Shown here: positions 30,793 to 41,440 of the stretch, piece after piece
Layout: every line of letters starts with the position of its first letter
How positions within the stretch are numbered: the stretch's first letter is position 1
DNA from: an uncultured Myxococcales bacterium
GTDB lineage: Bacteria > Myxococcota_A > UBA9042
DNA length: 64,000 nucleotides
Direction of reading: 5' to 3'
NCBI GenBank assembly: GCA_903840165.1
Contig: CAIMEY010000119.1
Coordinates: 1 to 64,000 of the forward strand
The notes under the pieces: generated by a model
Databases searched by the model: none
What the model was told of the DNA's origin: nothing
The model's input: the letters and a program-made list of their open reading frames with translations, nothing else
Translations under genes and position numbers: made by a program

Positions 30793-32013
30793 TCAGAAGC
30801 TAGCCCCGACGCACACCGTGGCGGAGGCGCCGTTGCGAATCGAGCGCCCGGCGGCATCGGCGATGGCGTGGTCGATGAGGTCTTCGCGTCCTTCCAACCG
30901 CACGAAACCTTTGCCAACGCGCAGGTCGCCGCCCACGGCGTAGGACATGGCGTGCAGGCGTGCTTGGGCGCGCAATCCCCATAGATTAGCGATGTTGCTA
31001 TCCAAGACTAGGCGAACGCCGGACTCGTCGTAGATGCCTTCGCCTCGTGCAAATACGCCAAACCACTCGCCAATGCCATAACGGGCGATGGCGCCAGCGG
31101 CTGCCCAGTGCGCTGTTTGGGCTGGTGTCGCCGAACCCAAGACGCCGGCAGCGAAATCTTCTTGCCCAAGGTGCCCTTCTCCCTGCACGGTCAGGTCGCC
31201 CCAGGCCCATTGTCCCATGACGGCCAACCGAAGCCGTTGGCGGTCTTCTGCGCCGGCGAGGGCGAAGGTGCCGCGGCTGTCCTGTTCCGCACCCCGATAC
31301 GCTTGCAAACTAATGTACTTATCGGTCGCACCCCCTGGCGCAAAGGCGACGCCCAGGCCTACGGTCTTGGCACGGTTGTTGTCGACGATGCGATCTTCAC
31401 CATTAAAAACCCATACATCCGTGCTCCAGTCCTTGCTCCATTCGTGGTGCCAGTTGCCGCCGATTTGGCCGTATGGGTCGATGTAAGTGAACAGGATGCC
31501 GCGCGAGGCCGTGATGTCCTGACTGCCGTCGAGGAACTCCATGCCCAGATAAGTGCTCATTCGGCCAAAGGATAGTTTGTCCTTATCGCCGCTCCAGCTG
31601 ACCTGCGCTTCGGAAATGGCGACGGCGCCAGCTTCGCCGTTGGTTTGGTTGAGGATTCGTGCTGCCTGGCCGCCGATGATCGTCGTCTTGATCGACCAGC
31701 CCTTGGCTAGGTCGACGTCCATGCCCAACGTAACTCCATCTAAACTCAAGGCATCCTCACCGGCGTCGGTGGCGCGTAGCAGCAGGCTGTTGTCAGTCAT
31801 GCGCCGTTGCTGCGTGGTCCCAGACGCCCAGACCGAACCACGCCATTTGACCGTCAGACCCGCATCGGTGGTCGACGTTTCAGTAGCACCGGCAGCTAGT
31901 TGCGTCGTTGGCAGCCCACGCTCGGTGATCGTTGGCTCCTCCTCGCCATAGGCAAGCGCGCCCGGCGTCAGGCCAATCACCAGCACGCCAGCAGCCATGT
32001 ACCGATTTCGCAT
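30793..32013 (-). CDS. Outer-membrane beta-barrel porin (porin-2/OmpL-like)
   Basis: 406 aa. ATG 32013 follows AGGAGAGGAC and gives a signal peptide ending GALA. The mature protein has alternating hydrophobic/aromatic strands throughout and ends in Phe (CVGASF), the usual outer-membrane insertion signal. The segment with FLDGSQDITASRGI and GQIGGNWHHEWSKDWSTD resembles the putative porin-2 (OmpL-like) family. Its substrate is unknown. It lies downstream of the RuBisCO-like/transketolase operon (109 bp gap) on the same strand and might serve uptake for that pathway; that is speculative. Confidence 0.7.
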   Translation of the reverse strand: MRNRYMAAGVLVIGLTPGALAYGEEEPTITERGLPTTQLAAGATETSTTDAGLTVKWRGSVWASGTTQQRRMTDNSLLLRATDAGEDALSLDGVTLGMDVDLAKGWSIKTTIIGGQAARILNQTNGEAGAVAISEAQVSWSGDKDKLSFGRMSTYLGMEFLDGSQDITASRGILFTYIDPYGQIGGNWHHEWSKDWSTDVWVFNGEDRIVDNNRAKTVGLGVAFAPGGATDKYISLQAYRGAEQDSRGTFALAGAEDRQRLRLAVMGQWAWGDLTVQGEGHLGQEDFAAGVLGSATPAQTAHWAAAGAIARYGIGEWFGVFARGEGIYDESGVRLVLDSNIANLWGLRAQARLHAMSYAVGGDLRVGKGFVRLEGREDLIDHAIADAAGRSIRNGASATVCVGASF

Positions 32014-32122
32014 GTCCTCTCCTTGCTTGCGGCATTGCCGCCTGCCGCGCTTGAGGCTGCTAGCAGACCCGAACGGGAACGTCAACATCGTCAACCCGCT
32101 GGATAGTAAGCGATTTCCTGCC

Positions 32123-33268
32123 CTACTCTACCAACGCGCGGAAATGTCGGCCATTGGCCACCAAGTCGCCACCATTGCGGTGCAAGTCGCCACCGACCAG
32201 GAGCACCACATCGTTTCCGTAAAACGCCCGCATTTCTGCAGACCTATTGACGCTCATGCCGCCAGCTGGTGCGGGCAAGATGGGGGCCAAGTGGTGAAAA
32301 CGCGCGGCGCAGTGCTCGGCAATTTCAGAACAGTCACGGGCGCTAAAGGCAAAACGACCACCGACGTGCGGAAAGATGCTGACGTCCGCGCCCGCCAGCC
32401 GTGCCAGTTGGCCAAAGACGACACCATGGGCAAGGCCATGACTTCGTTCAGCAACAAAGGCGCCGGTCAGGGCCGGATGGGCGAAAATGGGCAGCCCGAG
32501 CGTGTCATCTTCGGCCAAGGCCCGCATCGTGTCCCAGCCGACCAGGCCAGGCGCGACCAACAGGGCTCCGGCGCCACATTGCTTGGCAAAATGAGCCCTT
32601 TGCAGCACCTGATCGAAGCGCGCTGCGACATTTGGCGCATAAAGACAGACTTCCCCTGTCTTTGCGCAGGCTTGTTGCACAGCCTCGGCACAGCGGGCCA
32701 CACGTTCGGCGTAGTGGCCAAAAGATTGGTCCGCCAACCCATGATCATCTTTGATGATATCCATGCCGCCCAGGGCCAACTGCCCCGCCATCGCCGCGAG
32801 ATCGATGCCGCCCAAGCCCATAGGCTTGATCGCCGTCGCCAGAACCGGCCGCTGCGGCACACGCAAAAGCTGCCGAAGTCCGGCCACACCAAAGCGAGGC
32901 CCTACGTAAGGTTTGACAATTTGTGGCGAAAGGTCGAGGTGCTGCACGCGAACGCCCGGTTTGAGGCTGAAGTTGCCGTAGATGACGTTGAGCAGTTGCG
33001 TCAGCTCTTGTCCAGCTGTTTCAACGGCATAGCTGAGAACGGCCGCCCACGTCGGCTCCGGTTCATCGGCCACAGGCTGCAGCGACTCAATGCGGCCAAA
33101 GACGTGGTCGCGAATCCACGGTTGATGGATGAGATCTTCAGGAAATTCAACAGTTTGCTCGATGCATAGCTCGTGCGCCACGCTGCGCGCCTGCACGTTG
33201 CTCCCGCGCAGGTGATAGGTGACGCGGAACCGCTCGCCCGAAAAGTCTTTACTATCCGAATGGTTCAT
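32123..33268 (-). CDS. RuBisCO-like protein (form IV type)
   Basis: 381 aa, of the RuBisCO large-chain superfamily. By hand alignment to spinach RuBisCO, Lys175 is kept (K148 in AIKPMGLGG), Lys177 becomes Met150, and Lys201/Asp203 are kept (K173, D175 in IIKDDH). Glu204 becomes His176, His294 is kept (H264), Lys334 becomes Arg305 and Ser379 becomes Ala335. Carboxylase activity is therefore unlikely; an enolase, isomerase or decarboxylase-type reaction on a sugar phosphate or acid is more probable. The start ATG overlaps the stop of the transketolase subunit (ATGA), with GGAGG upstream. The subgroup cannot be assigned by eye. Confidence 0.85.
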   Translation of the reverse strand: MNHSDSKDFSGERFRVTYHLRGSNVQARSVAHELCIEQTVEFPEDLIHQPWIRDHVFGRIESLQPVADEPEPTWAAVLSYAVETAGQELTQLLNVIYGNFSLKPGVRVQHLDLSPQIVKPYVGPRFGVAGLRQLLRVPQRPVLATAIKPMGLGGIDLAAMAGQLALGGMDIIKDDHGLADQSFGHYAERVARCAEAVQQACAKTGEVCLYAPNVAARFDQVLQRAHFAKQCGAGALLVAPGLVGWDTMRALAEDDTLGLPIFAHPALTGAFVAERSHGLAHGVVFGQLARLAGADVSIFPHVGGRFAFSARDCSEIAEHCAARFHHLAPILPAPAGGMSVNRSAEMRAFYGNDVVLLVGGDLHRNGGDLVANGRHFRALVE

Positions 33269-34302
33269 AGGGCCTCCGCCTTGGTCGCACTGTGCACCGC
33301 TTCTAGGCGAACGGCAGCCAAGTCCTCGCGGGCAATGGGCAAATCGCGGCCGGTCAACTGGGCCACGGCTTTGACCAGCGCAAAGGCATCAAGGCCATAT
33401 TTCTCCATCAAATACGCCTTACTAGCGCCATGTGCGTACGTGTCACGCAGGCCGAGGCGAATCAGCGGCTTGCCCGCGCCCATCTCCGCCATGACCTCGG
33501 CGACCGCGGAACCAAGGCCGCCAATAATGCCGTGATTTTCTAAGGTAATCACGCCAATTTGGGCGTGCGCAATCGCCGCAGCGACCTGCGGATCGGCAAA
33601 TGGCTTGAGGGTCGAAATGTGCAAATGCGTAATTGATATACCGTGTTGTTCTAGCAAAGGTAAGGCGCGAAGTGCCTCTTCGGTGCAAATTCCCGATGTC
33701 AGAACCGTAATTTGTCGTCCCTGCCGGAGCACTCGCGCACGCCCGAGGACCATCGGCTCGCTGGGGTCGAACAGGCGGATGACCTCGCCGCGCAGCATCC
33801 GCACATAGACCGGGCCTGGAATCGGATGGCAAACATCAAGAATTTGTTCGACTTCCGTGGCATCGCCGCATTCGAGCACAGTCATGTTCGGGATGGCCCG
33901 CATCAGCGCCACGTCGTCCGTCGCCTGGTGGGTCACGCCGCCCGGGGTCGTGATGCCGGGCAAAAAGCCCAAAAGCCGCACCGGTAAGCAGGGATAGCCA
34001 ACGCTCATCGCCACCTGATCAAAGGGCCGCCGCGTCAGAAAAACGCCGAACGTATGAAGATAAGGGATGAATCCTTCGCGCGCCAAACCTGCCGCAAAAC
34101 CGATGAGGTTCTGTTCGGCGACGCCTAGGGAAACGAAGCGCTGCGGATACGCTTGGCGAAAGCCGTCAGCTTCGCACGAAGCGGTCAGATCTGCTGAAAG
34201 CACGAGTACTTCTGGCTTATCGGCCGCCCAAGCGACTAGGCGTTTGGCATGGGGCCGGGCGACGACTTGGCCAACCGTGGCCGTGGCGAGGTCAGCGCTC
34301 AT
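33265..34302 (-). CDS. Transketolase-like protein, C-terminal subunit
   Basis: 345 aa, corresponding to the pyrimidine-binding and C-terminal domains of a split transketolase. Blocks such as ADLTASCEADGF, SLGVAEQNLIGFAAGLA (with the conserved Glu) and GGVTHQATDDVALMR are typical. ATG 34302 overlaps the upstream stop as ATGA and follows GGGAGG with good spacing, so it is translationally coupled to the N-terminal subunit. The two chains would form one active site that transfers a two-carbon unit between sugar phosphates. The downstream RuBisCO-like gene is coupled in the same way. Confidence 0.88.
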   Translation of the reverse strand: MSADLATATVGQVVARPHAKRLVAWAADKPEVLVLSADLTASCEADGFRQAYPQRFVSLGVAEQNLIGFAAGLAREGFIPYLHTFGVFLTRRPFDQVAMSVGYPCLPVRLLGFLPGITTPGGVTHQATDDVALMRAIPNMTVLECGDATEVEQILDVCHPIPGPVYVRMLRGEVIRLFDPSEPMVLGRARVLRQGRQITVLTSGICTEEALRALPLLEQHGISITHLHISTLKPFADPQVAAAIAHAQIGVITLENHGIIGGLGSAVAEVMAEMGAGKPLIRLGLRDTYAHGASKAYLMEKYGLDAFALVKAVAQLTGRDLPIAREDLAAVRLEAVHSATKAEAL

Positions 34303-35273
34303 TGGGCCTCCCATTGGCTCAGAACTTGCTGATATTGCGCTTCTTCAGTGGCGTTCTGCAAGCGCACATAGTGCAACTTGGGGGCGCGTTGGCGCAGCAA
34401 TTCGATGCCGTGGCACGGATCGGTGCGACAGACGACGGCCAAAGGTCGGCCATCGAACGGCAATTGTGCTGCGTCAATCAATGCTTGCGGGTCATGCCCG
34501 TCGATCTCGACCACGCGGGCGCCAAAGGCCTGAAGGCGTGCGCCCAAGGGTTCGATGCCCATGACGCCGGTCATCGGGCCGTCGCATTGAAAGCCGTTGG
34601 CATCGATGACCACGGCAACATGATCCAGTTGGTGAAAGGCAAGTGCCTGAAATGCCTCCCATATCTGACCTTCCTGGCACTCGCCGTCGGAGAGAAACAC
34701 CCACGTCCGGCCGCTGTGCCCCTTCATCCGCCGCGCCAGGGCGACACCGCCCGCTTGGGACAGGCATTGGGCCAGCGATCCCGCCATGGTTTCCATGCCT
34801 GGCGAGTGTTCGGCACCGATGAGCTCGACGGTAGAACCGTCCTGGTTGAACGTGTCGAGCGCGTCCGGGCCAAGGCGTCCCACCTCAATCAGCGCTGCGT
34901 ACAGCACCAGGGCGTAATGCACCGGTGAGAAGAAAAACCTATCTAAATCAGGCGCATGTGCACCGTTGTAGCGTGAGCCGGAGCGCGTCGGTCTGTCGGC
35001 ATTGGGCACGCCGGCGAACGGTTCCGGCTGGGCAGGCCCTTCACTGGGACCAAGGCGCAGAACGGCCGTGTACAGCGTCGCCAAGATCTCAGCGGACGAG
35101 CAGGCTTGGGACAGATAGCCGCCCTGATTGGCGATGACATGGGCCAGGACGCGGCGGCGGATGGCGTCGGCTACGCGTCGGGCATCGGCAACCGCTTGAT
35201 TGTCAACGGGTTGAACGGCGACGGTACGCAGCTCGCGCGCTGGCGTGCCCATTGGCGAAAGGGGAACCGGCAT
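34299..35273 (-). CDS. Transketolase-like protein, N-terminal (ThDP-binding) subunit
   Basis: 324 aa, the thiamine-diphosphate-binding half. The motif LSDGECQEGQIWEAFQAL ending at a downstream Asn (VVIDANGFQ) is the ThDP/Mg site; SPGMETMAGSLAQ and KGHSGRTW are also family-like. ATG 35273 is chosen for length; the frame extends upstream without family similarity, and no strong ribosome site precedes any candidate. It is the first gene of a three-gene leftward operon. Split transketolases occur widely in bacteria and often serve specialised sugar pathways. Confidence 0.85.
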   Translation of the reverse strand: MPVPLSPMGTPARELRTVAVQPVDNQAVADARRVADAIRRRVLAHVIANQGGYLSQACSSAEILATLYTAVLRLGPSEGPAQPEPFAGVPNADRPTRSGSRYNGAHAPDLDRFFFSPVHYALVLYAALIEVGRLGPDALDTFNQDGSTVELIGAEHSPGMETMAGSLAQCLSQAGGVALARRMKGHSGRTWVFLSDGECQEGQIWEAFQALAFHQLDHVAVVIDANGFQCDGPMTGVMGIEPLGARLQAFGARVVEIDGHDPQALIDAAQLPFDGRPLAVVCRTDPCHGIELLRQRAPKLHYVRLQNATEEAQYQQVLSQWEAQ

Positions 35274-38444: not shown

Positions 38445-39047
38445 GTGGACGGGCGCGAAACTCCGCCGCATCCAGGGCGTCAGCTGGAACTCGTTGAGTT
38501 TACTTGTAATGGTGAGCCAGCTGCCGTTGCCGTGCCCAGTCACTGGACGCTGCTGGAAATGCTGCGCTATGGCCTGGGGCTGACCGGTACCAAGCAGGGC
38601 TGCGACAAAGGCGATTGTGGCACGTGCACCATTATTCTCGATGGCCAACCTGCCCTGGCGTGCCTGACCCTGGCGCTCAGCGCTCGCGGGCGATTTGTCC
38701 AGACGGTGGAAGGACTTGGTGTCGGCGGCCAGCCCCATCCTTTGCAGGCGGCCTTTGCCCGTCTGGGAGCTGCGCAGTGCGGCTTTTGCACCCCGGGGAT
38801 GCTGATGTCAGCCAGCGCCCATATTGAAGACGCGGTAGTGCAAGGCTTTGCTGTGACAGCGGAATCGGTGTCCCAGGCCCTTGCTGGCAACCTGTGCCGG
38901 TGCACGGGGTACACCAAGATCGTGCAAGCCGTCGTGGAGGCAGCCAAAGAGATCGCCCGAGATAGCCGAGCGGTAGACGAGGCTGGCATGGGTTCTCTGG
39001 CCGATTCGGACCTCAGCGCGGCCCACCAAGTTGGAGGCCGATCGTGA
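38445..39047 (+). CDS. Molybdenum hydroxylase small subunit, 2x[2Fe-2S]
   Basis: 200 aa, of the xanthine dehydrogenase/CoxS/HcrC family, passing electrons from the molybdenum site. Plant-type cluster: Cys53, Cys58, Cys61, Cys73 (QGCDKGDCGTCTI...C). Second cluster: Cys112, Cys115, Cys151, Cys153 (CGFC...CRC). GTG 38445 follows AAGAGG. Its stop overlaps the GTG start of the large subunit (GTGA), so the two are coupled. Confidence 0.9.
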   Translation: MDGRETPPHPGRQLELVEFTCNGEPAAVAVPSHWTLLEMLRYGLGLTGTKQGCDKGDCGTCTIILDGQPALACLTLALSARGRFVQTVEGLGVGGQPHPLQAAFARLGAAQCGFCTPGMLMSASAHIEDAVVQGFAVTAESVSQALAGNLCRCTGYTKIVQAVVEAAKEIARDSRAVDEAGMGSLADSDLSAAHQVGGRS

Positions 39048-41440
39048 GCCAACCGCTTGATAGTAAAGATGTATCGTCCGAACTGCCCCAGCAACCGTCG
39101 CGCCACATCCTCGGCGGCCGTCACGGCAAAGCGGATTCGCTGGACGCCATGACCGGTGTCGCCCGCTACACCGATGACATCAGCCTGCCGCGGATGTTGC
39201 ACGCCAAGATCCTGCGAAGTCCGCACGCCCATGCAGAAATCGTGCGAATTGACGTCAGCGCGGCGGAGGCCCTGGACGGCGTGCACGCGGTGGTGGTCGG
39301 CCGTGAAATGCCTACTTGTTACGGGGTGATTCCCTGGACACCCGATGAGCAGGCCTTGGCGACCGACAAGGTGCGCTACGTCGGCGATGCTGTGGCGGCG
39401 GTCGCAGCAATTTCAGAGGAAATTGCCAATCTTGCCTGTCAGCTCATCGAAGTGGAGTACAAAGTCCTGCCGGCGCTGATTACGCCCGAGGCTGCCCTCC
39501 AACACCCTGAAATTAAGATTCATCCCAACAACAAGCACGGCAATATCACCAAGTCGGTGCAGTTGGCCTTTGGCGACGTCGATGGACAGCTTGAAGCTGC
39601 CGATCTGGTGGTTGAGGGCCACTATCAGTTCCACGGCACGACGCACGGTGCGCTGGAACCCCATTGCGCGGTTGCGTATTTCGATACGCGCCAACTGCTG
39701 ACGGTGTGGTCCTCGACGCAGGTGCCCCACTACTTGCACCGCGAACTGGCCAAGGTGCTGGGCCTACCGACCTACCAAATCCGCGTGATTCAGCCCTTGG
39801 TTGGCGGCGGTTTTGGAGGAAAATCAGAGCCTTTTGACCTCGAGTTTGCCGCAGCGCTCTTGTCGATTCGCACCGGCCGCCCGGTCAAGCTGCTATACAC
39901 GCGCGAAGAGGTGTTTTTGGCCCACCGCGGTCGACATCCCTTTGACATGAACTATCGCACGGGATTCTCTAAGGATGGCAAGATCTTAGCGGTCGATGCG
40001 CGTTCCATTCTCGATGGCGGTGCCTACAGTTCCTTTGGTCTGGTGACTACCTATTATTCTGGGCAGTTGCTTGGCTCGCCCTACGCATTCGATAGCTATC
40101 GCTTTGATTCAACGCGGGTTTACACCAACAAGCCTGCGTGCGGCCCCAAGCGTGGGCATGGTTCGGTGCAGCCGCGTTTTGCTATGGAAGTTCAACTGGA
40201 TAAGGCCGCCGTAGCCTTGGGTCTGGACCCCATCGAGCTAAGACGGCGCAATTTCATTGGCGAAAATACGACGACCATCAACGAATTCCACGTCGGTTCA
40301 AGTGGTTTCTTGGAATGCCTGGACAGCGTCGAGCAGGCCAGCGGCTGGAAGCAGCGCCGGGGTCGGTTGCCGCGCGGTCGTGGCCTCGGCGTCGCCGGTT
40401 CAACGTACATCAGCGGCACCAACTACTGCATTTATCCAACAGAATTGCCGCAATCCGGCGTGCAGATCTGCCTGGACCGCTCTGGCCGTGTCCGCGTCTT
40501 TGCCGGCACCAGCGACATCGGTCAGGGCAGCTCCACCATGCTGTCCGTCATCGCCGCCGAAGAGCTGGGCGTTGAAATCGACGACGTCCGCGTCATCGCC
40601 GCCGACAGTGACCTTTGCCCAGTCGATCTAGGCGCTTACAGCTCGCGCATCACGCTCATGGCAGGCAATGCCTGCTTATCGGCCGCTAAGGACTTGGGCG
40701 GCAAAGTCCGTGATGCTGTTGCAAAATCCTGGGGATGCAGCCGCCGCGAGGTCCTCCTTGCCGGTCGCCGTGCCCAGCGCCTCGATGACCCGAGCGTGTG
40801 GATGTCGATTCAGGATGCCTTTGTGCTCGCCGAAATCGCTTACGGTACAATGGGTTCTACGGGCAGCTACCAAACGCCCCGCCAAGAGGTTCACGGCGAA
40901 TACCGCGGCGGTACCATCGGCGCCAGTCCCGCCTACAGTTTCACGGCACACATTGCTGAAGTGGAAGTCGATGAAGAAACTGGCGAAATCGAGATTCTTC
41001 ACGTCTGGTGCGCCCACGATTGCGGCAAGGCCTTGTCGCCGGTGCTGGTCGAAGGGCAAATCGAGGGCAGCGTCTACATGGGCGCTGCCGAAGTGGTGCT
41101 AGAACACCACCACGTCATGGATAGCGGTCTCAAAGCCGATGGTAGTCAACGGGATTCTGGTCCGGGCGTCGAAGGACTGCTCGCCGCCAGTTCCTTGCTG
41201 GACTACCGCATGCCGACGACGCTGGATACGCCCCAACTTCATGCTATGATTGTGGAAAAGCCCGATCCCCGTGGTCCCTATGGTGCCAAAGAAGCCGGCG
41301 AAGGGCCGCTGCATTCGGCGATCCCTGCGATTGTCAACGCGATTTACGACGCGATTGGCGTGCGCATTGACCAATTGCCCGCGACGCCCAGCAAGATTCT
41401 TGCTGCTTTGAGGGCGCAGCGCTCAGGTAACCCATTGTAG
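39044..41440 (+). CDS. Molybdenum hydroxylase large (molybdopterin) subunit
   Basis: 798 aa, of the xanthine dehydrogenase / 4-hydroxybenzoyl-CoA reductase alpha family. It binds molybdopterin-cytosine dinucleotide and hydroxylates or oxidises an aromatic, heterocyclic or aldehyde substrate. The hammerhead domain comes first; VGGGFGGK lies near residue 252, and the catalytic Glu is in GAKEAGEG (~747). GPKRGHGSVQPRFAMEV is closest in look to 4-hydroxybenzoyl-CoA reductase-like enzymes. GTG 39044 follows GGAGG. No FAD medium subunit is encoded next to it, so the final acceptor is unclear. The substrate cannot be assigned. Confidence 0.85.
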   Translation: MSQPLDSKDVSSELPQQPSRHILGGRHGKADSLDAMTGVARYTDDISLPRMLHAKILRSPHAHAEIVRIDVSAAEALDGVHAVVVGREMPTCYGVIPWTPDEQALATDKVRYVGDAVAAVAAISEEIANLACQLIEVEYKVLPALITPEAALQHPEIKIHPNNKHGNITKSVQLAFGDVDGQLEAADLVVEGHYQFHGTTHGALEPHCAVAYFDTRQLLTVWSSTQVPHYLHRELAKVLGLPTYQIRVIQPLVGGGFGGKSEPFDLEFAAALLSIRTGRPVKLLYTREEVFLAHRGRHPFDMNYRTGFSKDGKILAVDARSILDGGAYSSFGLVTTYYSGQLLGSPYAFDSYRFDSTRVYTNKPACGPKRGHGSVQPRFAMEVQLDKAAVALGLDPIELRRRNFIGENTTTINEFHVGSSGFLECLDSVEQASGWKQRRGRLPRGRGLGVAGSTYISGTNYCIYPTELPQSGVQICLDRSGRVRVFAGTSDIGQGSSTMLSVIAAEELGVEIDDVRVIAADSDLCPVDLGAYSSRITLMAGNACLSAAKDLGGKVRDAVAKSWGCSRREVLLAGRRAQRLDDPSVWMSIQDAFVLAEIAYGTMGSTGSYQTPRQEVHGEYRGGTIGASPAYSFTAHIAEVEVDEETGEIEILHVWCAHDCGKALSPVLVEGQIEGSVYMGAAEVVLEHHHVMDSGLKADGSQRDSGPGVEGLLAASSLLDYRMPTTLDTPQLHAMIVEKPDPRGPYGAKEAGEGPLHSAIPAIVNAIYDAIGVRIDQLPATPSKILAALRAQRSGNPL

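Follow-up and report, generated by a model that had tools for sequence, protein, structure and literature searches.

A split transketolase coupled to a RuBisCO-like protein: a proposed branch of 5-methylthioribose salvage in an uncultured Myxococcales bacterium and in other bacterial phyla

In a stretch of 64,000 nucleotides from an uncultured Myxococcales bacterium (contig CAIMEY010000119.1 of assembly GCA_903840165.1, positions 1 to 64,000; hereafter the window), the two halves of a transketolase (TK) are encoded directly before a RuBisCO-like protein (RLP). With a probability of roughly two in three, we propose that these three genes provide the last two steps in the salvage of 5-methylthioribose, the sugar that is left after the use of S-adenosylmethionine. 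The genes and their junctions are as follows:

34299-35273, minus strand: TKN, the N-terminal half of a two-subunit transketolase, which binds thiamine diphosphate (ThDP) (Pfam Transketolase_N)
33265-34302, minus strand: TKC, the C-terminal transketolase half (Pfam Transket_pyr and Transketolase_C)
32123-33268, minus strand: RLP of the DeepYkr group, a proposed 5-methylthioribulose-1-phosphate 1,3-isomerase (Pfam RuBisCO_large, 98 bits)
34299-34302, minus strand: ATGA overlap of the TKN stop and the TKC start, with GGGAGG upstream
33265-33268, minus strand: ATGA overlap of the TKC stop and the RLP start, with GGAGG upstream

The junctions read CCCAATGAGC and CCCTATGAACC, with the ATGA overlap in both and GGAGG a few nucleotides 5′ of each. 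The longest open reading frame (ORF) of TKC begins at 34314, and the start is placed at Met5 (34302) because the ATGA overlap couples TKC to TKN. An earlier note on this DNA, made from the sequence alone, had described a translationally coupled unit of split TK and RLP with ATGA overlaps and GGAGG-type ribosome sites. The overlaps are confirmed, the junctions numbering two, and the unit itself is supported; the overlaps make stoichiometric synthesis of TKN, TKC and RLP plausible.

The RLP is very probably a 5-methylthioribulose-1-phosphate isomerase, as judged from its relatives. Its nearest sequence in the PDB is 3qfw, an RLP of Rhodopseudomonas palustris (246 bits; the next is 4nas, an MtnW, at 170), which is also the best fold match of its AlphaFold model (pLDDT 92; TM 0.87/0.94). 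Phylogenetic analysis of 113 proteins places the RLPs linked to a TK, 3qfw and the cupin-linked RLP of Terrarubrum in one clade (SH-aLRT support 99), apart from OiaX and from the MtnW clade (support 96). We infer that 3qfw is R. palustris RLP1, because it pairs with the cupin-linked RLP of Terrarubrum and RLP2 is a different entry (2qyg). The DeepYkr enzymes, namely the R. rubrum RLP and R. palustris RLP1, convert 5-methylthioribulose-1-phosphate to 1-methylthioxylulose-5-phosphate (PMC5893883), a 1,3-isomerisation that shifts the carbonyl and leaves the carbon-carbon bonds unchanged (PMC5893883); in R. rubrum and R. palustris a cupin then turns the product into 1-deoxyxylulose-5-phosphate (DXP) and methanethiol (PMC5893883, PMC4958253). 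The form IV tree, which the earlier note had proposed as a check, thus groups the protein with the DeepYkr member 3qfw and outside MtnW and OiaX, and the active-site residues are as that note described them: K148, K173, D175 and H264 are the equivalents of Lys175, Lys201, Asp203 and His294, M150 and H176 stand at positions 177 and 204, and R305 lies within an invariant GGRF. In a 23-sequence cross-phylum alignment K148, K173, D175, H176, H264 and R305 are invariant. The carbon-carbon rearrangement that the note had envisaged for the RLP is unsupported, because the DeepYkr isomerisation leaves these bonds intact (PMC5893883) and the cleavage is assigned here to the TK.

The linkage of RLP and TK is far beyond chance, and it is old and widespread. 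A scan of GTDB-representative genomes returned more than 500 RLP relatives, and in the 80 loci most similar to the window RLP, a selection whose linkage fraction is no census, TKN and/or TKC adjoin the RLP in 57. These loci span about ten phyla, including Chloroflexota, Nitrospirota, Bacillota, Spirochaetota, Pseudomonadota, Planctomycetota, Myxococcota, Acidobacteriota and Calditrichota, and the genomic evidence for the TK branch also takes in Clostridia, purple sulfur bacteria and rhizobial plasmids. Within the window's class (52 genomes, G000-G051), adjoining TKN-TKC-RLP occurs in three families; an RLP is present in 23 genomes, and a TK of the core type in 20 of these 23 against none of the other 29 (Fisher p 1e-11, uncorrected for kinship). 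The conservation in other genomes for which the earlier note had proposed to look is therefore found. The TKCs of these 20 genomes, all of which hold an RLP, are 42-72% identical to that of the window, and in genus g15 the core-type TK lies on a contig other than that of the RLP, yet both are in the genome. Among the RLP genomes of the class without a core TK, the gene lies at a contig end in G011 and is MtnW-like in G030, and in G031 (locus L033) the Lys175 equivalent has changed from K to H and KDDH to KEDH. L033, the only sequence in the separate class alignment with K148 altered, is probably a copy in decay or put to a new use. Family f3 has, adjoining the RLP, a second split-TK lineage that is separate from the core one; the pairing is either independent or very old, and it too speaks for a functional tie between TK and RLP. 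At present the RLP-linked TKs are annotated by domain name, e.g. ‘transketolase C-terminal domain-containing protein’.

The RLP-linked core TKs form a single clade (100/100 support). An active ThDP enzyme is expected, because these core TKs keep the ThDP motif (SDGE..DANG in the window TKN) and the catalytic Glu (AEQN in the window TKC), and the window TK is not the housekeeping enzyme, since its genome holds a separate full-length transketolase (414 bits). The substrate-binding motifs are altered. Specifically, the window TKN reads VELIGAEHSPG where the canonical donor-recognition motif has GHP..PG.E, and VE(M/L)IGA(E/D/Q)HSPG replaces GHP throughout the core clade; the window TKC reads FLPGIT-TPGG-THQA in place of THAGLTVGEDGASHQA, and the THAG..GEDG stretch has become FLPG..TPGG in nearly every core member. 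His103, His469 and Asp477 (yeast numbering), the canonical donor and acceptor residues of transketolase, are replaced in 61/61 core TKCs and in all core TKNs. The His of the GHP motif touches the C1 hydroxyl of the donor in yeast transketolase, and the core clade has Met, Leu or Ile at the position of this canonical His; a hydrophobic residue in place of a C1-hydroxyl ligand would fit a methylthio or deoxy donor. As a signature of the RLP-linked TKs, IGA(E/D/Q)HSPG together with (T/S)(P/A)GG.(T/S)HQA is retained, and loss of the GEDG Asp was dropped because unlinked split TKs lose this Asp too. Another specialised split-TK group without GHP and GEDG is found on Chimaeribacter and Agrobacterium plasmids (L210, L213), where the neighbours are genes for short-chain dehydrogenases and for MFS or TRAP/ABC transporters. 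The predicted model of TKC has a mean pLDDT of 82 and low confidence in the FLPGIT-TPGG loop.

What the RLP and the TK have in common is suggested by a gene that takes the place of the TK. In Terrarubrum the order is RLP-cupin-cysE, with no TK adjoining, and with the Terrarubrum cupin as query a cupin was found adjoining the RLP, among the 80 loci, only in the TK-less loci L108, L142 and L114. At the level of whole genomes, a cupin homologue is present in 13 of the 18 RLP genomes without a core TK against 1 of the 32 with one (Fisher p 3e-7); in 5 of the 23 TK-less loci, a core TK lies elsewhere in the genome. The RLP tree calls for at least 12 changes in the presence of the TK and for 11 in that of the cupin, and because both change so often the pattern is not one old split. 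The plain reading of this exchange is that cupin and TK would act on the same RLP product, and the TK probably does consume it. No cupin adjoins the RLP in the window, a statement about the adjoining genes, as no whole-genome cupin search was made of the window's genome.

The genes around the operon in relatives indicate which sugar is concerned. In the high-GC flanks, where gene calls by ORF length are unreliable, neighbours were identified by tblastn with known proteins, and the cut-offs were 275 bits for MtnK, 279 for MtnA and 275 for MtnP, with NCBIfam cut-offs of 700 for OiaX and of 409 and 514 for MtnW. In Clostridium ljungdahlii the order is substrate-binding protein-ABC ATPase-permease-MtnK-MtnA-TKN-TKC-RLP, with scores of 433 bits for MtnK and 427 bits for MtnA, and plasmids of Pararhizobium, Mariluticola and Agrobacterium carry mtnK-mtnA-TKN-TKC-RLP adjoining sugar ABC genes; from these MtnK/MtnA neighbours we assign the substrate as a probable methylthioribose derivative. 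In Ponticoccus, genes for a purine-nucleoside phosphorylase, an amidohydrolase, MtnA and a molybdopterin oxidoreductase lie 5′ of TKN-TKC-RLP. Over the 80 loci MtnA is found in 16 (against about 0.26 expected by chance beside the RLP), MtnK in 9 and MtnP in 2 (directly 3′ of the RLP in L122), with at least one of the three in 19. A ribulose-phosphate 3-epimerase lies directly downstream of the RLP in L123, where it would suit the known isomerase, whose products are the xylulose and ribulose forms at 3:1. Sulfur amino acid genes adjoin the operon in 9/80 loci; for example, directly upstream of TKN lie an O-acetylhomoserine sulfhydrylase in L157 (643 bits, cut-off 495) and MetX-MetW in L110. Sulfhydrylase and MetX are weaker evidence than MtnK and MtnA, because both also serve ordinary methionine synthesis. 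Taken together, the observed neighbours match the needs of a route from methylthioribose to methionine. The nearby kinase that the earlier note had thought worth seeking is present in relatives as MtnK, and of the substrates it had put forward, methylthio-sugar salvage proves to be the right area, given the DeepYkr clade and the MtnK/MtnA neighbours, and D-apiose or D-apionate does not hold (see below).

In the proposed pathway, MtnP, or a nucleosidase plus MtnK, followed by MtnA, would yield 5-methylthioribulose-1-phosphate, and the RLP would shift the carbonyl to the position beside the CH2-SCH3 carbon, giving 1-methylthio-D-xylulose-5-phosphate. The ThDP of the split TK would then attack this carbonyl, the C2-C3 bond would be cut and glyceraldehyde-3-phosphate freed, while the methylthio two-carbon unit would stay on ThDP as the enamine MeS-CH2-C(OH)=ThDP. 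The enamine could lose methanethiol by beta-elimination, leaving acetyl-ThDP to be hydrolysed or phosphorolysed to acetate or acetyl phosphate; sulfoacetaldehyde acetyltransferase and phosphoketolase chemistry are precedents for such an elimination. The TK would thus replace the glutathione-using, cupin-type methylsulfurylase of the 5′-methylthioadenosine (MTA)-isoprenoid shunt. The release of methanethiol on the TK, argued by analogy, is offered tentatively, and so is the full conversion of 1-methylthioxylulose-5-phosphate to glyceraldehyde-3-phosphate, methanethiol and acetate or acetyl phosphate.

The salvage genes of the window's own genome and class fit this proposal in part. MtnP (306 bits) and MtnA (427 bits) are both encoded in the genome. 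DXR has no match there and none above cut-off in 52/52 genomes of the class, which appears to be without the methylerythritol phosphate (MEP) pathway, and because DXR is absent the outlet of DXP to isoprenoids would be closed in this organism. Acireductone dioxygenase (ARD) is found in 4/20 TK genomes against 21/32 others of the class, a comparison likewise uncorrected for kinship, and is absent from every genome searched in families f2 and f3. Several observations weigh against the proposal. In the window's genome MtnP and MtnA are unlinked to the operon, MtnA, MtnP and MtnK adjoining it in relatives only, and no O-acetylhomoserine sulfhydrylase scores above cut-off. The genome also holds MtnB-type aldolase/dehydratase and ARD genes, so that the organism probably has the aerobic route too and the TK route would be an addition to it. 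As for the exchange with the cupin, only two of the contrasts between cupin and TK stand on well-supported branches, too few for a sign test on independent pairs to reach significance, 5 of the 18 TK-less genomes are also without the cupin, and L131 carries both cupin and core TK. The TK lacks the GEDG Asp and the phosphate-contacting His that would be expected for a glyceraldehyde-3-phosphate leaving group, and some other specialised split TKs are also without this phosphate-side His and Asp. Finally, the class-wide tests of RLP with TK and of ARD count genomes as independent.

These points leave room for other readings, of which the strongest concerns the fate of the two-carbon unit. The TK may move the methylthio unit to an aldehyde acceptor or free 2-(methylthio)acetaldehyde, with methanethiol released later, in a glyceraldehyde-3-phosphate version of the dihydroxyacetone phosphate (DHAP) shunt. 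Ketol transfer or aldehyde release would be ordinary TK chemistry, and the DHAP shunt makes methylthioacetaldehyde and methylthioethanol from the same carbons (PMC5893883, PMC10986504); however, no alcohol dehydrogenase or methylthio-alkane reductase is a conserved neighbour in the loci examined, and the exchange with a methanethiol-releasing cupin favours methanethiol as the TK product, which makes this outcome the less likely one. A lower probability is given to 5-deoxyribose from 5′-deoxyadenosine, the waste of radical S-adenosylmethionine (SAM) enzymes, as the actual substrate, the RLP then making DXP from 5-deoxyribulose-1-phosphate and the TK yielding glyceraldehyde-3-phosphate and an acetaldehyde unit. 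MtnK/MtnA-type enzymes take both sugars (DrdK has the same kcat/Km with 5-deoxyribose as with methylthioribose; PMC6079011), anaerobes with numerous radical SAM enzymes are frequent among the hosts, and the lost C1-OH-binding His would also suit a 1-deoxy donor. Nevertheless, the known reaction of the exchanged cupin breaks a C-S bond (PMC4958253), and sulfur amino acid genes adjoin the operon in the 9 loci mentioned above, which would make 5-deoxyribose alone an improbable substrate; the same enzymes may handle it alongside methylthioribose.

Still less probable is that the operon breaks down another imported sugar and that its link with Mtn genes in some genomes is secondary. A Vibrio nigripulchritudo plasmid (L207) does carry TKN-TKC-RLP-FGGY kinase adjoining carbohydrate ABC genes, and in the Chloroflexi loci L175 and L184 an RLP without TK has an FGGY kinase and genes for sugar ABC transport beside it, but there are few such loci, and their branches are long or lack the TK, whereas MtnA, MtnK or MtnP neighbours recur in 19/80 loci and on alphaproteobacterial plasmids. 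It is very improbable that the RLP belongs to aerobic methionine salvage as a diverged MtnW enolase and is linked to TK incidentally. Its best NCBIfam matches are indeed MtnW models, yet it scores 223 bits against 409 and 176 against 514, falls in a separate clade and has KDDH, not KDDE, while ARD is less frequent in TK genomes (4/20) than in others of the class (21/32). The class supplies an internal MtnW control: the RLP of another type in G030 (L045, G030:C117), which lies between an MtnB-type gene and ARD and reaches 390 bits on the same model, would be the MtnW-like enolase in a cluster for aerobic salvage. RLPs and split transketolases both occur in D-apiose and D-apionate pathways, so that an OiaX-type decarboxylase with an AptA/AptB-type transketolase would be a known pairing, and OiaX is named in NCBIfam. 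The chance of this is slighter still, because the window RLP scores 88 bits on the OiaX model against its cut-off of 700 (a true OiaX scores 709) and lies in a separate clade, and no four-carbon acid sugar kinase is among the neighbours examined.

Salvage of methylthioribose by RLP and TK would share much with known systems. With the MTA-isoprenoid shunt of R. rubrum and R. palustris it has in common the RLP clade, the upstream MtnP and MtnA, and the probable RLP product 1-methylthioxylulose-5-phosphate, but where the shunt has a cupin methylsulfurylase the window operon has a dedicated split transketolase. The outlet here would be glyceraldehyde-3-phosphate and a two-carbon unit instead of DXP, in a class without DXR, and glutathione, unlike in the cupin reaction, would be needless. 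The DHAP shunt or Drd pathway (MtnK-MtnA-class II aldolase) uses the same kinase and isomerase and breaks the sugar at the same carbon-carbon bond, its aldolase yielding DHAP and an aldehyde; here, by contrast, the carbonyl would be moved first and a ThDP enzyme would cut with opposite polarity, so that the sulfur could leave. The nearest solved structures to the TK, those of the Carboxydothermus hydrogenoformans split transketolase (6yak/6yaj; 123 and 220 bits), have the same two-subunit layout, but this enzyme keeps GHP and GEDG and is not a member of the RLP-linked clade. MtnW (YkrW) enolase and OiaX decarboxylase are likewise form IV RLPs, in separate clades, with other active-site residues and neighbours, and the window RLP scores under the cut-offs of both. 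The 5.39 million open papers searched (subscription papers being outside this scope) describe RLP isomerase, cupin and aldolase routes, and none of them was found to link a transketolase and an RLP in the salvage of methionine or of 5-deoxyribose. The isomerase is therefore already known, and the TK as its downstream enzyme would be the new part.

Of the other genes in the window, a BBP2-type outer-membrane porin (30793-32094, minus strand) begins 28 bp 3′ of the RLP on the same strand; it is unconserved in relatives and gave no functional link. In family f3, two conserved genes lie 3′ of the RLP, C5 (outer-membrane-barrel-like) and C4 (single-membrane-span), in loci L032, L034, L035, L039, L040, L041 and L044; neither has a Pfam match, and no functional link was obtained. 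A molybdenum hydroxylase pair at 38445-41440 (plus strand) consists of a [2Fe-2S] subunit and a large subunit nearest to 4-hydroxybenzoyl-CoA reductase alpha (847 bits, under the 995 cut-off), and no coenzyme-binding FAD subunit was seen adjoining these genes.

The recycling of MTA without the oxygen-dependent salvage enzyme is only partly known, the published routes being two, the isoprenoid shunt with its cupin and the DHAP shunt. A third branch is proposed here from genomic evidence, in which the TK is commoner than the cupin among the sampled RLP loci. Should the TK prove to release methanethiol, this activity would itself be new, and a methionine salvage independent of oxygen and glutathione would extend across about ten bacterial phyla. 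Many RLP and transketolase genes now known by domain names would gain a pathway, with C. ljungdahlii as a cultivable host, and the TK branch could let bacteria reuse both the sulfur and the carbon of methylthioribose without oxygen.

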